DNA of 64,000 bases from Ponticaulis koreensis DSM 19734 (lineage in GTDB: Bacteria > Pseudomonadota > Alphaproteobacteria > Caulobacterales > Hyphomonadaceae). The DNA lies in assembly GCF_000420665.1 (NCBI RefSeq), contig NZ_ATVJ01000001.1, positions 310,001-374,000 on the forward strand, given 5' to 3'. Made by a program: the position numbers and the translations under genes. Under the pieces are notes generated by a model that was not told the origin of the DNA, did no database searches, and worked only from the letters and a program-made list of their open reading frames with translations. This document shows positions 2,428 to 6,548 of this stretch, one piece after another (position 1 is the stretch's first letter; each line of letters opens with the position of its first letter).

Positions 2428-3411
2428 ATGTCAGGTGAATTGATCACGGTATTCGGCGGGTCAGGTTTTCTCGGTCGCTATGTTGTGCGCAATCTGTGCC
2501 GCGCCGGTTACCGCGTTCGCGTCGCGGTTCGCAAGCCGCATCTGGCAGGTGATCAGCGCCTCGCAGGTGATGTCGGCCAGGTCCAGATCGTTCAGGCCAA
2601 TGTCCGCAACCGCCCGAGCATCCAGCGTGCTCTTGAAGGTGCGTCCGGCGTCATCAACCTTGTTGGCATTCTGTTCGAGCGTGGCCAGCAGACATTTGAA
2701 GGTACGCAAGGCCTTGGCGCGAAAAACGTTGCTGAGCTTGCAGCTGAAGCCGGCATTACAAACTTCGTCCAGCTCTCTGCCATCGGCGCCGATGCTGAAA
2801 GCGAAGCCGAATACGCCCGCACAAAGGCTGAAGCCGAAGCTGACGTACGCCAGTATATGCCAAGCGCGGCAATCGTACGCCCAAGCATTATTTTCGGCCC
2901 AGAAGATGACTTCTTCAACCGTTTTGCCAGCATGGCCCGCTTCACACCGGCCCTTCCGCTGATCGGTGGCGGCGAAACCAAATTCCAGCCAATCTTCGTT
3001 GGCGATGTTGCCGATGCTGTTGTCAAAGCACTTCAGTCTGACGCCGCGAACGGCCGCACCTTCGAAATCGGCGGCCCGGCTGTCTACACATTCAAGGAAA
3101 TCCTTGAATACATCACCAAAGAGATCGACCGCCCGCGTCTGCTTGCGCCGTTGCCATTCTTTCTCGCCAAGCCAATCGGTCTCATCACAGGTACGATTTT
3201 CAGCATCTGGCCATTCCCTGCGCCGCCAATCACTGGCGATCAGGTCGAAATGCTGAAAACTGACAATGTGGTCGGCATTAGCGGCGAAGAGAATATCGGC
3301 ACGCTGGCAGACCTTGGTGTGACTGAGCTTGAGAGCATTGAGACCATCGTTCCGACTTACCTCTGGCGTTTCCGCCCGCAGGGCCAGTTCCACGAAGTCA
3401 AAGACGCTTAA
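2428..3411 (+). CDS. Complex I NDUFA9/39-kDa-like SDR protein
   Basis: An atypical short-chain dehydrogenase of the type associated with the 39-kDa subunit of NADH:ubiquinone oxidoreductase in alphaproteobacteria and mitochondria. The Rossmann motif GGSGFLG sits at residues 9-15, followed by VNLVGILFE near residue 80 and the VRPSIIFGPED block near 150, all typical of this group. The length, 327 residues, is normal. In the family the protein binds NADPH and stabilises complex I rather than acting as a metabolic enzyme. No nuo gene lies in the window, which is common for this subunit. GGAG nine bases before the ATG supports the start. Confidence 0.85.
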   Translation: MSGELITVFGGSGFLGRYVVRNLCRAGYRVRVAVRKPHLAGDQRLAGDVGQVQIVQANVRNRPSIQRALEGASGVINLVGILFERGQQTFEGTQGLGAKNVAELAAEAGITNFVQLSAIGADAESEAEYARTKAEAEADVRQYMPSAAIVRPSIIFGPEDDFFNRFASMARFTPALPLIGGGETKFQPIFVGDVADAVVKALQSDAANGRTFEIGGPAVYTFKEILEYITKEIDRPRLLAPLPFFLAKPIGLITGTIFSIWPFPAPPITGDQVEMLKTDNVVGISGEENIGTLADLGVTELESIETIVPTYLWRFRPQGQFHEVKDA

Positions 3412-3431
3412 GCTTTTCAGGAACAAGTGAG

Positions 3432-3479
3432 GGGCCCCACCCGTTCTGTCTTCAGTAGGTTCAGACAGAATGGAGGCCC
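3432..3479 (+). promoter_or_regulatory. Leader hairpin covering the osmC-family ribosome binding site
   Basis: A perfect stem TTCTGTC (3444-3450) / GACAGAA (3464-3470) is enclosed by an outer stem GGGCC (3432-3436) / GGCCC (3475-3479). The outer right arm contains or abuts the GGAGG of the following gene, whose ATG is at 3483. The structure could sequester the start site, or the inner dyad could be a protein operator. It lacks a T-run, so it is unlikely to be the terminator of the SDR gene. Confidence 0.4.
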
Positions 3480-3482
3480 TTA

Positions 3483-3923
3483 ATGAAACGCACAGGCACA
3501 GCTAAATGGAGTGGTTCGCTTAAAGACGGCAGCGGCACAGTGTCAACGCAGTCAGGCGTCCTCACCAACTCACCTTACTCGTTCAAAGGCCGCTTCGAAG
3601 ACGAAGACGGCAAGACCGTAACCAATCCGGAAGAGCTGATTGGCGCGGCCCATGCAGGCTGTTTCACCATGCAGCTCTCGCACATGCTGGCCGAAGCAGG
3701 CCACCCGGCAGATATGCTGGAAACCACAGCCAATGTGTCGGTCGAACCGGCAGATGGTGGCGGCTTCGAAATCACCAAAAGCCATTTACAGCTTTCGGCA
3801 CGCGTCCCTGGCATCGATAATGACGAGTTCATGAAGCTCGCGAACACAGCAAAATCCGGCTGCCCTGTATCGAAGGCCCTGGCAGGAACCGAGATTTCTA
3901 TGGAAGCCAAGCTTCACGACTAA
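3483..3923 (+). CDS. osmC: OsmC-family peroxiredoxin
   Basis: A thiol-dependent peroxidase that reduces organic hydroperoxides in the cytoplasm. The two reactive cysteines are visible in GAAHAGCFTMQLSHML (about residue 59) and in SGCPVSKAL (about residue 125). The length, 146 residues, and the start MKRTGTAKWSGSLKDGSG fit the OsmC branch rather than Ohr. A single-gene transcript is likely: a hairpin leader lies upstream and a strong terminator follows. GGAGG six bases before the ATG supports the start. Confidence 0.88.
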   Translation: MKRTGTAKWSGSLKDGSGTVSTQSGVLTNSPYSFKGRFEDEDGKTVTNPEELIGAAHAGCFTMQLSHMLAEAGHPADMLETTANVSVEPADGGGFEITKSHLQLSARVPGIDNDEFMKLANTAKSGCPVSKALAGTEISMEAKLHD

Positions 3924-3935
3924 GCAAACAACAAA

Positions 3936-3963
3936 AAAGGCGCCTCTGGGGGGCGCCTTTTTC
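3936..3963. terminator. Bidirectional rho-independent terminator
   Basis: AAAGGCGCC (3936-3944) pairs with GGCGCCTTT (3952-3960), with T residues after it on the plus strand and A residues before it. It serves the OsmC gene and, on the other strand, the EF-hand gene that ends at 3986. Confidence 0.9.
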
Positions 3964-3985: not shown

Positions 3986-5047
3986 TTAGTATTCCCGCAT
4001 TGGCTCTTCTTCCATCTCACCTTCGAGCTCCGGCTCATGCGCTTCATGTTCAGCGTGATCGCCATGCTCGACGCGCTCACGATGGATGATAACCCGCGCC
4101 TCGCCATCAAGCTCGATATCGAGATCGCGCTCCAGCTCTTCCAGATCAATAATGCCAGCCAGGCCTTCTTCATCCAGCAGAGCCTGCAGCTCCTCAAGAC
4201 CTGAGAGATCAATCTCTACGCCTTCAAGTTCGGCAATGCGTGCGATCTCGTCGGTATCAATCTCCTGAACGACGATTACGGCACGAGCCGCCTCACGCAC
4301 AGCGGCGCGCGCTTCATCACGTGCACGCGCAATTTCAATGCGGATATGCTCGCGGTCAGCAAGTTCCATCGCCTGCGCGCGTGAGATGTGCGCCTCGATG
4401 TTCATCTCTTCGATTTCGGACAGGCGCTCCATCGTCCGCTCGATGATCTCCTGGATCTCTTCGTCAGACATATCTACGTCGACATTTTCGACCCAGCGAT
4501 GCTCGCGAACTTCAATCTCACCATCTTCAAGCGAACCCAGCTCGGTCCGGTTCACCGTAATGACACGGACTTCCTCGCCTTCGTCGCTGATAAAGACATT
4601 ATCATTCACGCCCGTGACGACAGCTTCGGAATTGAACTCGTCAGCCGAAATCTGGCCATCACCATTCGTGTCGAGGATTTCAAAGACAGCGCTGTCATTA
4701 GCGGAAATTTCGCCCGCGGTGAGAACACCGTCGGAGTTTCGGTCAAGCCGCTCAAAGGCTTCGTCAGAAGCTGCTGATGGCATAGCGAGCAACATCGCGC
4801 TGCTGGCCGCGACTGCGCCGGCAGTTGCCAGCGACTTTCTAAGATTACGCTTCATAAGGGTCACAACGTCCTTCATCTGGAATTGGCGTTGTGACTGCCG
4901 GTCGTGCTCGTCGAGGAAACCCTCAATGCCAGCGCGCAGAGCTTCACTCGCGGTGAGGCCTTCTTTTTTGCATGCTTCCATGAAAGCGATTTTCTGCGAG
5001 TAAGAGAGCCTTACCTCGAGACTTTCACTCTTTTTTTCTTCACGCAT
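3986..5047 (-). CDS. Membrane EF-hand protein with ribbon-helix-helix-like N-terminus
   Basis: A 353-residue protein of unusual layout. Residues about 10-47 (EVRLSYSQKIAFMEACKKEG and onward to FLDEH) resemble a CopG/Arc-type ribbon-helix-helix. A positively charged stretch and a hydrophobic helix follow at about 66-93 (a signal anchor or signal peptide ending SAAS). Two canonical EF-hand loops, DRNSDGVLTAGE (102-113) and DTNGDGQISADE (126-137), come next, then about 200 very acidic, probably coiled-coil residues. AAAGG nine bases before the first ATG supports the long form. An internal ATG at 4855 would give a conventional secreted EF-hand protein. If the long form is made, DNA-binding and calcium-sensing parts would be separated by the inner membrane. 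Function unknown. Confidence 0.75.
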   Translation of the reverse strand: MREEKKSESLEVRLSYSQKIAFMEACKKEGLTASEALRAGIEGFLDEHDRQSQRQFQMKDVVTLMKRNLRKSLATAGAVAASSAMLLAMPSAASDEAFERLDRNSDGVLTAGEISANDSAVFEILDTNGDGQISADEFNSEAVVTGVNDNVFISDEGEEVRVITVNRTELGSLEDGEIEVREHRWVENVDVDMSDEEIQEIIERTMERLSEIEEMNIEAHISRAQAMELADREHIRIEIARARDEARAAVREAARAVIVVQEIDTDEIARIAELEGVEIDLSGLEELQALLDEEGLAGIIDLEELERDLDIELDGEARVIIHRERVEHGDHAEHEAHEPELEGEMEEEPMREY

Positions 5048-5192
5048 AGCGCACTGCCTTTCGGGTTCACGACCATTCAGTCACGCACTCAGCGGACCAG
5101 TAATTCACGTAAAAGAGAAACGAACTCACGTCTGGATGCCAGAAAAAACGTGTCCGGACACCTGAAATTTCGGTCATTTTAGCCCTGATGGC

Positions 5193-5606
5193 CTACCACT
5201 TAATGCCCATTTTCTGCTTCGCCCATTCGGCGAAATCAGCCGGCCGGTCATAAGCACGCTCATCCAGCGAACCGAAAGCAAGAAGTATCTGTTCAGCCGT
5301 TTCAAGGCGAACACCTTTCGGCGGGGCCTGCCCTTCCAGCCAGTAGGATGCGTTGTTCATATCCTGGCTTGGGTCGATGACGAACATAACACGTGTACCG
5401 CCATTGCCTTCTTCATCACGGCCAAAAACAAGACCGTAAATCGTCTCACGTCCCCACATGCCACGACTGATCTGCTGCACTTTGCCATCAAGCAGAACTT
5501 CATCATGGGACATATGACGACGCCACTGCAAAATGTGCATGTCATTGCCGTTGACGATTTTGATGTCGATTTTCCAGTGCGCCATGCGCACGATCGTCGC
5601 GTCCAT
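5193..5606 (-). CDS. Small conserved-looking protein of unknown function
   Basis: A protein of 137 residues from the ATG at 5606, which has GGAGG five bases upstream; an ATG five codons earlier (5621) has no site. The sequence is beta-rich (KIDIKIVNGNDMHILQWRRH, then LLDGKVQQISRGMWGRETIY) and ends in a helical Trp-containing tail. The spacing of the DGK and GxET elements is faintly reminiscent of FAIM-type beta sandwiches, but this is weak and no function is claimed. It has no signal peptide. A striking palindrome overlaps its promoter region. Confidence 0.65.
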   Translation of the reverse strand: MDATIVRMAHWKIDIKIVNGNDMHILQWRRHMSHDEVLLDGKVQQISRGMWGRETIYGLVFGRDEEGNGGTRVMFVIDPSQDMNNASYWLEGQAPPKGVRLETAEQILLAFGSLDERAYDRPADFAEWAKQKMGIKW

Positions 5607-5620
5607 TGAACCCTCCAGCA

Positions 5621-5655
5621 TTTATCGAAAAGCAATACTATCGTTTTTCGATAAA
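5621..5655. promoter_or_regulatory. Palindromic candidate operator upstream of the unknown gene
   Basis: TTTATCGAAAA (5621-5631) is the inverse of TTTTTCGATAAA (5644-5655). Within it lies a perfect 15-bp dyad, TATCG-TTTTT-CGATA (5639-5653). It is located just upstream of the minus-strand gene that starts at 5606, where an operator would act. No regulator gene is adjacent. Confidence 0.5.
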
Positions 5656-5693
5656 ATCAAGCTGTCAGTTTTTGTCCGGACAAGCACCAGTCG

Positions 5694-6548
5694 CTAGCTG
5701 ATCCAGCCAAATGCGAGCGGAGAGGACAGAACGAGCACAATAGCGAGTGCGACACGATAAACCACAAAAGGCAGGAAGCTCATCTTCTCAAGCAGCTTCA
5801 TCAGCGCCCAGATGGAGAAGATACCCGAGAGGAATGAAAGCGCCGCCACGATCAGACCATCCGTCAGGTTTGCTGCGCCCGTTGTTTCTGCGGTGAGCAG
5901 CTCCAGCACTGCATAAGCGCCGGTCGCCGCAAGTATCGGCGCACCGATCAGCATTGAGAACCGCGCAGCCTCTGTACGCTTGTAACCAAACCAGCGCGCT
6001 GCCGTCATGGTAATGCCGGACCGGCTCGTGCCAGGAAGAAGCGCGGCAATCGCCTGCGTCGCGCCGATGAGCACAGCTTGCATCACGCCCATTTCATCCA
6101 TGGACTTTTCATTCCCGCCGCGCGTATCAGCCCACCAGAGCGCGATACCAAAGACCAGCGTTGTTGCCGCGACTGTGAGCGGCCCGCGAAGACCATCTTT
6201 AAGCTCGTCACCTGCCAGCACCTCGAACCCGCCAACAACGGCCAGAGTGATCGGCATGGACAGAAGAATGAGCATGGCATGGCGCGCATTTGAAGAGAGC
6301 GCCTTACGGGTGGCAGCAGCGCCAATCAGGTCGAACCCACCACCAATTGCCCGGCCTACATCCTTCCAGAAATAGAGAAGCACCGCGAAAAATGTTCCCA
6401 GATGCGCCATCGCGTTGATCAGAAGTTCATCATGCGCGCCAAAACCGAAATAACTTGAGGCCAGAAGCACGTGTCCCGACGAGGAAATCGGCAGCCACTC
6501 GGTAATTCCCTGCAGAAGTGATATAAGTATGATCTGCATTAGCGACAT
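5694..6548 (-). CDS. uppP: Undecaprenyl-diphosphate phosphatase
   Basis: An integral membrane enzyme that dephosphorylates undecaprenyl diphosphate to recycle the peptidoglycan lipid carrier; overproduction gives bacitracin resistance in the family. Both signature motifs are present: QGITEWLPISSSGH near residues 14-27, and LLPGTSRSGITMTAARWFG around 170-190. About eight hydrophobic helices are visible and the length, 284 residues, is usual. The start could be this ATG or the ATG three codons later (MQII); neither has a strong ribosome binding site. Confidence 0.93.
   Translation of the reverse strand: MSLMQIILISLLQGITEWLPISSSGHVLLASSYFGFGAHDELLINAMAHLGTFFAVLLYFWKDVGRAIGGGFDLIGAAATRKALSSNARHAMLILLSMPITLAVVGGFEVLAGDELKDGLRGPLTVAATTLVFGIALWWADTRGGNEKSMDEMGVMQAVLIGATQAIAALLPGTSRSGITMTAARWFGYKRTEAARFSMLIGAPILAATGAYAVLELLTAETTGAANLTDGLIVAALSFLSGIFSIWALMKLLEKMSFLPFVVYRVALAIVLVLSSPLAFGWIS

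Follow-up and report, generated by a model that had tools for sequence, protein, structure and literature searches.

The window, i.e. the whole 64,000 nucleotide stretch of Ponticaulis koreensis DSM 19734 DNA analyzed here, carries a minus strand open reading frame that displays an N-terminal ribbon-helix-helix (RHH) domain, a hydrophobic segment, two EF-hand loops and a long acidic tail. A palindrome is located in the upstream region. The features at the locus are:

3986–5047, minus strand: the whole open reading frame, 353 aa, long form from the ATG at 5047 (open reading frame listing, orthologues in the genus)
4898–5029, minus strand: RHH domain, residues 7–50 (profile, model and alignment)
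5021–5023, minus strand: Ser9 codon; this RHH strand residue varies together with the operator (sequence comparison)
4869–4873, minus strand: internal Shine-Dalgarno-like AAGGA, 13 nt before the ATG at 4855 and 4 nt before the GTG at 4864
4862–4864, minus strand: GTG, codon 62, candidate internal start, which lines up by eye with a Henriciella ATG
4853–4855, minus strand: ATG, codon 65, the internal start proposed by the sequence-only reading of this locus
4769–4855, minus strand: signal-peptide-like segment, residues 65–93 (sequence)
4769–4780, minus strand: PSAA, signal-peptidase-I-like motif, residues 90–93 (sequence, alignment)
4709–4744, minus strand: EF-hand loop 1, D102–E113 (by eye, Pfam)
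4637–4672, minus strand: EF-hand loop 2, D126–E137 (by eye, Pfam)
3989–4621, minus strand: acidic tail, residues 143–353 (no significant Pfam family)
3933–3963, minus strand: terminator-like hairpin after the gene (consensus match only; three such hairpins found against 1.8 expected)
5151–5160, strandless: putative operator TGTCCGGACA, 104–113 bp upstream of the start (sequence, conservation)
5129–5138, strandless: degenerate second copy CATCCAGACG, 22 bp on (sequence)
5673–5682, strandless: second exact TGTCCGGACA, 52–61 bp upstream of a gene for a 142 aa protein (sequence)

The sequence-only reading described the frame as an RHH-like domain joined through a membrane helix to EF hands. This one-frame fusion is real and is found in 153 relatives, confirmed after a search of GTDB contigs with one degenerate pattern. 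The best 80 of the 153 (L040–L119) were studied. A set of 78 omits L068, which runs off its contig, and L116, which has an early stop; the alignment (A4) also omits these two and has 79 rows with the window protein added. L053, L054 and the window gene are near-copies of one another, and all counts given here, other than those of thinned sets, take related genes as independent. The best 80 relatives include members from Caulobacter, Phenylobacterium, Brevundimonas, Henriciella, Ponticaulis, Parvularcula, Kordiimonas, Devosia, Aminobacter and an Altererythrobacter bin. The constant part of the family is the RHH domain with the hydrophobic helix, and the tail is the variable part.

Six other genomes of the genus were searched. 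Five have an orthologue, with 63%–99% identity over the first 142–144 residues; in the sixth (G001, 87% complete) no orthologue was matched. The first 144 residues find a partial match in 48 of 61 genomes, the window's own included, many of these via the EF hands alone. In an order-wide search the first 92 residues of one divergent member were matched in 102 of 299 genomes, some over the RHH domain only, and class-wide 25 of 385 genomes gave matches, many of which are weak, short or interrupted by stop codons. Comparison of residues 1–50 with those of L113 gives a dN of 0.034 and a dS of 0.492. A chance open reading frame or a run-on is ruled out by the orthologues in the genus, the 153 relatives, the invariant residues of the family and a dN far below dS. 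The ribosome site of the long form, which had been called good, is modest only (AAAGG, 9 nt before the ATG).

The RHH-like N-terminus had been placed at residues 10–47; a profile and an AlphaFold model put the RHH domain at approximately residues 7–50. The profile (A1), made from the N-termini of 23 relatives with the window gene included, identifies solved RHH proteins when compared with PDB sequences, i.e. ORF56 (E-value = 1.6e-5), DinJ (2.3e-5) and ParG (0.005). A separate model of residues 1–62 was made because the 142-residue model matched EF-hand chains only. It displays helices at positions 16–29 and 33–60, with block-mean pLDDT values of 93–97 over residues 11–50. The RHH strand is unformed in it, as is expected of a lone monomer. 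Among the 50 closest chains listed for this model, most are RHH proteins by title and include TacA, KacA, MazE, ParD, PutA, CopG and Arc. The best structural match has a Z score of 6.5 over 51 residues at 1.3 Å, with the top rows tied. Prediction of the 1–62 segment, the check proposed with the sequence-only reading, thus gives an RHH fold, and a different fold was not seen.

Pfam RHH models are weak for the window protein (RelB, E-value = 0.014, below the cut-off) and NCBIfam gives sub-cut-off matches only. In PHROGs, residues 3–66 match a transcriptional repressor family (E-value = 4.9e-5). Residues K5, K6, E11, R13, K19, S34 and R38 are invariant in the 79 aligned members. The fused RHH-membrane-EF-hand protein probably binds DNA, since a matching palindrome is found in the gene's own promoter across four or more alphaproteobacterial orders.

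The two EF-hand loops, which had been called perfect, are canonical by eye and are recovered by Pfam EF-hand_1 above the cut-off in two stretches (E-value = 2.1e-9); calcium binding is predicted from this. Residues 86–142 of the model match EF-hand chains with Z scores of 7.6–8.2, and the 142-residue model has EF-hand-type chains alone among the matches listed. Scanning of the tails in the 79 members (E-value up to 0.01) shows EF-hand_5 in 66 and TonB_C in nine. Tails without a Pfam family at E-values up to 0.1 are found in L026 (1081–1791, minus strand), L027 (1477–2160, plus strand) and L062 (2992–3462, plus strand). Several Caulobacteraceae members of about 110 aa have little beyond the RHH domain, the helix and one EF hand.

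A UppP gene is located upstream on the same strand in 14 of the 80 loci, and also in the window (5694–6548). This same syntenic place is occupied by a member with an EF-hand tail in the window's genus, and in Henriciella by one with a TonB_C tail (L094, L092, L057 and L078 compared with the window), and on this account tails seem to have been exchanged at one syntenic place. Such exchange suggests a modular coupling of periplasmic inputs to transcription. Calcium as a family-wide signal is ruled out by the TonB_C tails (9 of 79): because some relatives have a TonB_C or other tail, calcium is not the common input of the family.

The hydrophobic helix had been given as residues 70–93. The helix is real, but a plain membrane anchor is less likely, as it ends in PSAA at residues 90–93. 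P90 and A93 are each at least 90% conserved in the 79 members, and the motif P[SAVT]xA closes the hydrophobic helix in 72 of the 78 relatives. A hydrophobic helix that closes with P[SAVT]xA is what is expected of a signal peptidase I site. With this ending the stretch looks closer to a Sec signal peptide than to a simple anchor. The motif suggests cleavage by signal peptidase, and the tail, whether TonB_C, EF-hand or other, would be exported while the RHH domain is kept in the cytoplasm.

The stable transmembrane calcium sensor proposed by the sequence-only reading is therefore doubtful, given the conserved signal-peptidase-like motif and the TonB_C tails of some relatives. ToxR/CadC regulators combine in one protein a DNA-binding domain in the cytoplasm, a single helix in the membrane and a domain in the periplasm, an arrangement proposed for the window family as well. 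They use a winged helix-turn-helix and an uncleaved anchor. The window family has instead an RHH domain and a signal-peptide-like helix, thus it is not a member of that group but may work alike. No Pfam winged helix-turn-helix match is found in the window protein at E-values up to 1. A stable, uncleaved one-component sensor of this kind, where periplasmic calcium on the EF hands would act through the helix on an RHH dimer at the operator, agrees with the predominance of EF-hand_5 tails (66 of 79 at E-values up to 0.01), with the approximately 110 aa Caulobacteraceae members that consist of little more than RHH domain, helix and one EF hand, and with the operator in the own promoter. It is nevertheless unlikely: P[SAVT]xA is kept in 72 of 78 members where a plain anchor has no need of it, TonB_C tails in nine of 79 exclude calcium as common input, and internal starts would export the tail alone.

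Internal starts were recounted in 111 genes and in a set thinned below 70% identity. A Met codon just before the signal-peptide-like region is present in 58 of the 105 members that have a membrane segment. A Shine-Dalgarno core ends 5–10 nt before this Met in 40 of the 58, compared with 24 of 370 other internal Mets. The difference persists in the thinned set (21 of 30 versus 17 of 216, Fisher 1.6e-13). Because of this enrichment, many members are probably dual-start genes which also make the tail alone. The Arg codon AGG directly precedes the pre-signal-peptide Met in 11 of 33 cases, against 52 of 1014 elsewhere in the same genes; this rare-codon sign is weak because it fades after thinning (4 of 22 versus 27 of 516).

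A dual start was one of the two options offered by the sequence-only reading. It is supported for many members, however the ATG at 4855 that was named for the window is badly spaced at 13 nt from AAGGA. The AAGGA sequence is kept in the genus (L053, L054, L056, L058 and L113), and the GTG at 4862–4864 is the better candidate for an internal start there. The two options, a one-protein regulator and a dual-start gene, are compatible since dual starts are also supported in many members. In the remaining 47 of the 105 members there is no such internal Met, thus the fusion is independent of it, and production of the short form only, which was to tell against the fused protein, is unlikely for the same reason.

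These counts also bear on a two-product gene, in which the RHH domain would be an ordinary cytoplasmic autorepressor that shares a frame with an exported protein, with no control by tail or membrane. The internal start with its ribosome site in 40 of 58 members fits such a gene, as do the near confinement of the exact operator to the locus and the constancy of the RHH domain beside varying tails. We regard it as improbable. The fusion is kept in the 47 members without an internal Met and there is a linkage to a signal peptidase gene. In addition, a signal peptide behind a cytoplasmic domain should direct the long form to the membrane.

In 53 of the 80 loci the operator sequence TGTCCGGACA occurs in the 260 bp that precede the start, at distances of 54–203 bp; the next most frequent palindromic 10-mer upstream is found in three. 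If the lepB side is included (the region before a linked signal peptidase I gene, described below), 71 of the 80 loci have the exact sequence. The loci together comprise 476,675 bases and contain 91 exact copies, of which 88 lie in own-promoter or lepB-side regions and three elsewhere. In the window there are two exact copies, and only one in 100 shuffles contained as many. The second of them (5673–5682) is also present in L053 and L054, with no exact copy at L113, L056 or L058. The 142 aa gene behind it (5193–5621, minus strand) has no significant Pfam, NCBIfam or PHROG family.

TGTCCGGACA accompanies members from the Hyphomonadales, Hyphomicrobiales, Sphingomonadales and Kordiimonadales, in addition to the Caulobacteraceae. 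Nine of the 80 loci are without an exact operator in either place. Five of the nine show one mismatch and another, L102, has TGTCATGACA, and in L061, L071 and L095 (Kordiimonadales) there is nothing close to the operator in either place. L071 displays an exact copy at approximately +1835, about 63 bp before a neighboring 365 aa gene with a signal-peptide-like start.

In the own promoters a weaker second copy peaks at +22, with a mean of 5.66 of 10 letters compared with 1.28–4.4 at other offsets. On the lepB side this second copy is weak, with means of 4.0 (+21) and 4.07 (+22) out of 10 against as much as 3.87 at other offsets. A spacing of 22 bp is two helical turns and would fit RHH dimers bound in tandem. 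A search for a sigma-70-like promoter gave none, and repression is for this reason a guess from position, which sites at 54–203 bp before the start allow.

Genome-wide, exact TGTCCGGACA sites were counted against a backwards control. The window genome has seven exact sites and four control sites. In seven further genomes the exact counts are one each in Caulobacter and Kordiimonas, both at the RHH locus, two to five in four others, and seven in Brevundimonas; the controls are one in Brevundimonas and two to five in the other six. A large regulon as a general rule is ruled out by these counts, which are near the control (seven versus four in the window genome, one to five versus two to five in six others). 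A wider regulon is possible in Brevundimonas, since the exact site occurs seven times there against one for the control; two of the seven sites in this genome, that of L089 (G443), are the lepB pair. Of the window genome's five other sites, one is inside a coding frame (L037) and the rest are without clear promoter logic, with one possible exception (L038 1501–1523, C2:333468), where the site is immediately followed by GTGTCCTGACAC before a gene for a secreted 187 aa protein.

The residue at strand position 9 of the RHH domain, which we take by comparison with Arc to face the DNA, varies together with the operator. This was compared in 110 genes after loci were merged and exact repeats over the first 150 bases removed, with at least 60 bases of upstream sequence required. 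Lys is found at position 9 in five genes, and all five have TGTCATGACA upstream compared with none of the 105 others. Arg is found in six, of which five (L079, L016, L185, L201 and L207) have the asymmetric operator TGTACGGACA or its complement, compared with none of the 104 others; the sixth Arg gene has TGTCCGGACA. Three near-identical genes with His at this position have TGGCCGGACA, and 57 of 86 Ser/Thr genes have exact TGTCCGGACA in their own promoter. When the set is thinned below 70% identity, TGTCATGACA accompanies four of four Lys genes and TGTACGGACA five of six Arg genes.

The Lys genes do not form a single group in a tree of 108 genes, although forks are often weak. L023 and the group L183/L121/L182 lie in one part of the tree, beside the Ser/Thr genes L122, L184, L186 and L199, which carry TGTCCGGACA. 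The Lys gene L102 lies elsewhere. With such weak forks Lys at position 9 may still have had a single origin. The co-variation is the best evidence here that the RHH domain itself would read the operator, and the residue-operator pairs form a natural data set on RHH specificity.

It is accordingly very unlikely that the palindrome is the site of another regulator and that the RHH domain merely dimerizes the protein. The presence of a site beside a gene does not identify its binding protein, and Pfam RHH scores are weak for many members, which leaves this reading some room. Yet the site goes with the RHH gene in several orders, its numbers elsewhere are close to those of the control in most genomes checked, it varies together with residue 9, and E11 and R13 are invariant in 79 members. 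An N-terminal frame left open by chance in front of a secreted EF-hand gene, with the short form alone real, can be dismissed almost entirely: internal ribosome sites in many members would agree with it, but the invariant residues in the 79 members, the dN well below dS and the members without any internal Met do not.

Gene neighbors were clustered from longest open reading frames, some of which are antisense, and the lepB and uppP links are based on tblastn. Genes that recur nearby encode signal peptidase I, UppP, and GltD-like and epimerase-like proteins. In 34 of the 80 loci, those of short Caulobacteraceae-type members, the signal peptidase I gene (lepB) follows directly downstream in convergent orientation (tblastn E-value of 1e-73 or better). 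The linked lepB is found at about +280 to +1340 from the RHH gene start in L065, L067, L069 and 31 other loci. One or two exact TGTCCGGACA copies precede it in 30 of the 34, of which 18 have the operator there only and 12 also in the RHH promoter; the remaining four have it in the RHH promoter only. All 35 lepB-side copies are 21–201 bp before the lepB match and none is inside it.

The linked lepB is a second copy. Another full lepB is present in all six Caulobacteraceae genomes chosen from the 34 and adjoins an RNase III signature in five of them. A single lepB is present in the window genome. The 3,726 bases around it contain no exact operator and one single-mismatch copy, about 690 bp before the first ATG of this lepB. 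The peptidase link is therefore not general; it is seen only in Caulobacteraceae-type loci.

Taken together, this family probably represents a so far undescribed type of membrane gene switch that controls itself, since the relatives share the fusion design and a matching DNA site in their own promoters. The specific reading which we moderately favor is a membrane-linked autoregulator, where the RHH domain sits on the operator, the tail is exported, and the membrane or cleavage state sets the output. RHH dimers would bind TGTCCGGACA-type operators in their own promoter, most likely repressing it, and in the Caulobacteraceae would also, or instead, bind the promoter of the adjacent second signal peptidase I gene. 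The hydrophobic segment would act as a Sec signal peptide, leaving the RHH domain in the cytoplasm and placing the tail (EF hands, TonB_C or other) outside. In many Hyphomonadaceae-type members the second ribosome site would yield an exported tail without the RHH domain. Insertion of the tail, ligand binding or signal peptidase cleavage would then decide between retention of the RHH domain at the membrane, its release and its destruction, and in this way gene output may follow the state of export or of the periplasm. The computations show the fold, the fusion, the conservation of the operator and its co-variation with strand residue 9, the internal ribosome sites, the conserved PSxA-type motif and the linkage to the peptidase gene; the binding, repression, topology, cleavage and direction of the switch are inferred from these. 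If correct, this would add a family of RHH-based, membrane-linked switches. The system extends beyond the earlier reading: besides the fusion there are a putative operator, a candidate recognition residue that varies along with it, a second start and, in one clade only, a signal peptidase gene alongside. Its regulation is testable at once because a candidate operator is in hand.

A more particular proposal, which we hold tentatively and consider rather doubtful, is that the RHH repressor, with a signal-peptidase substrate in its own chain, reports signal-peptide processing. In the Caulobacteraceae it would control the second signal peptidase I gene by way of the operator that both genes share, in a feedback that adjusts export capacity, and the periplasmic tail would serve as a ligand gate that can be swapped. 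A signal peptidase gene controlled by a protein which itself has the peptidase-like motif would make the adjustment of signal-peptide processing directly testable.

With respect to known systems, the nearest published logic appears to be that of RsiV, RsiP and PutA. Trifunctional PutA has an N-terminal RHH domain, represses its own gene and chooses between DNA and the membrane, to which it moves (PMC5293562). An N-terminal RHH domain is common to PutA and the window protein; however PutA is a membrane-associating flavoenzyme, and the window protein has a predicted signal peptide and exported tail instead. Neither the window protein nor the Pfam families listed for the 79 members show proline dehydrogenase or another enzyme domain. 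RsiV is cut by signal peptidase only when lysozyme is bound (PMC6066255) and RsiP is cut by the signal peptidase SipP (PMC8844934). Both resemble the window family as membrane regulators with a cytoplasmic regulatory end and a signal peptidase site. They free a sigma factor, whereas in the window family the cytoplasmic end is the RHH domain itself and cleavage is suggested by a motif.

RHH antitoxins of the RelB, DinJ and TacA type have the same fold and are among the closest sequence and fold matches. In contrast to these, the window family has a signal-peptide-like helix, and no toxin is recognized among the recurrent neighbors of the family, nor in a Pfam scan of the window neighbors. A role as the antitoxin of a toxin pair is unlikely. 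Among titles found in the open-licence literature there is no description of an RHH-membrane fusion system. Matches listed there for TGTCCGGACA mostly concern the p53 family, and none is bacterial by title.

More than one member may be present in a genome. L055 has two members in tandem (2995–3567 and approximately 750 bases on), of which one carries a TonB_C-like tail and the other EF hands. The window genome has a second RHH-membrane gene on another contig (L002 1174–1782, minus strand). Its tail is of the TonB_C type, its strand position 9 is occupied by His, and a TGGCCGGACA site lies at −102.
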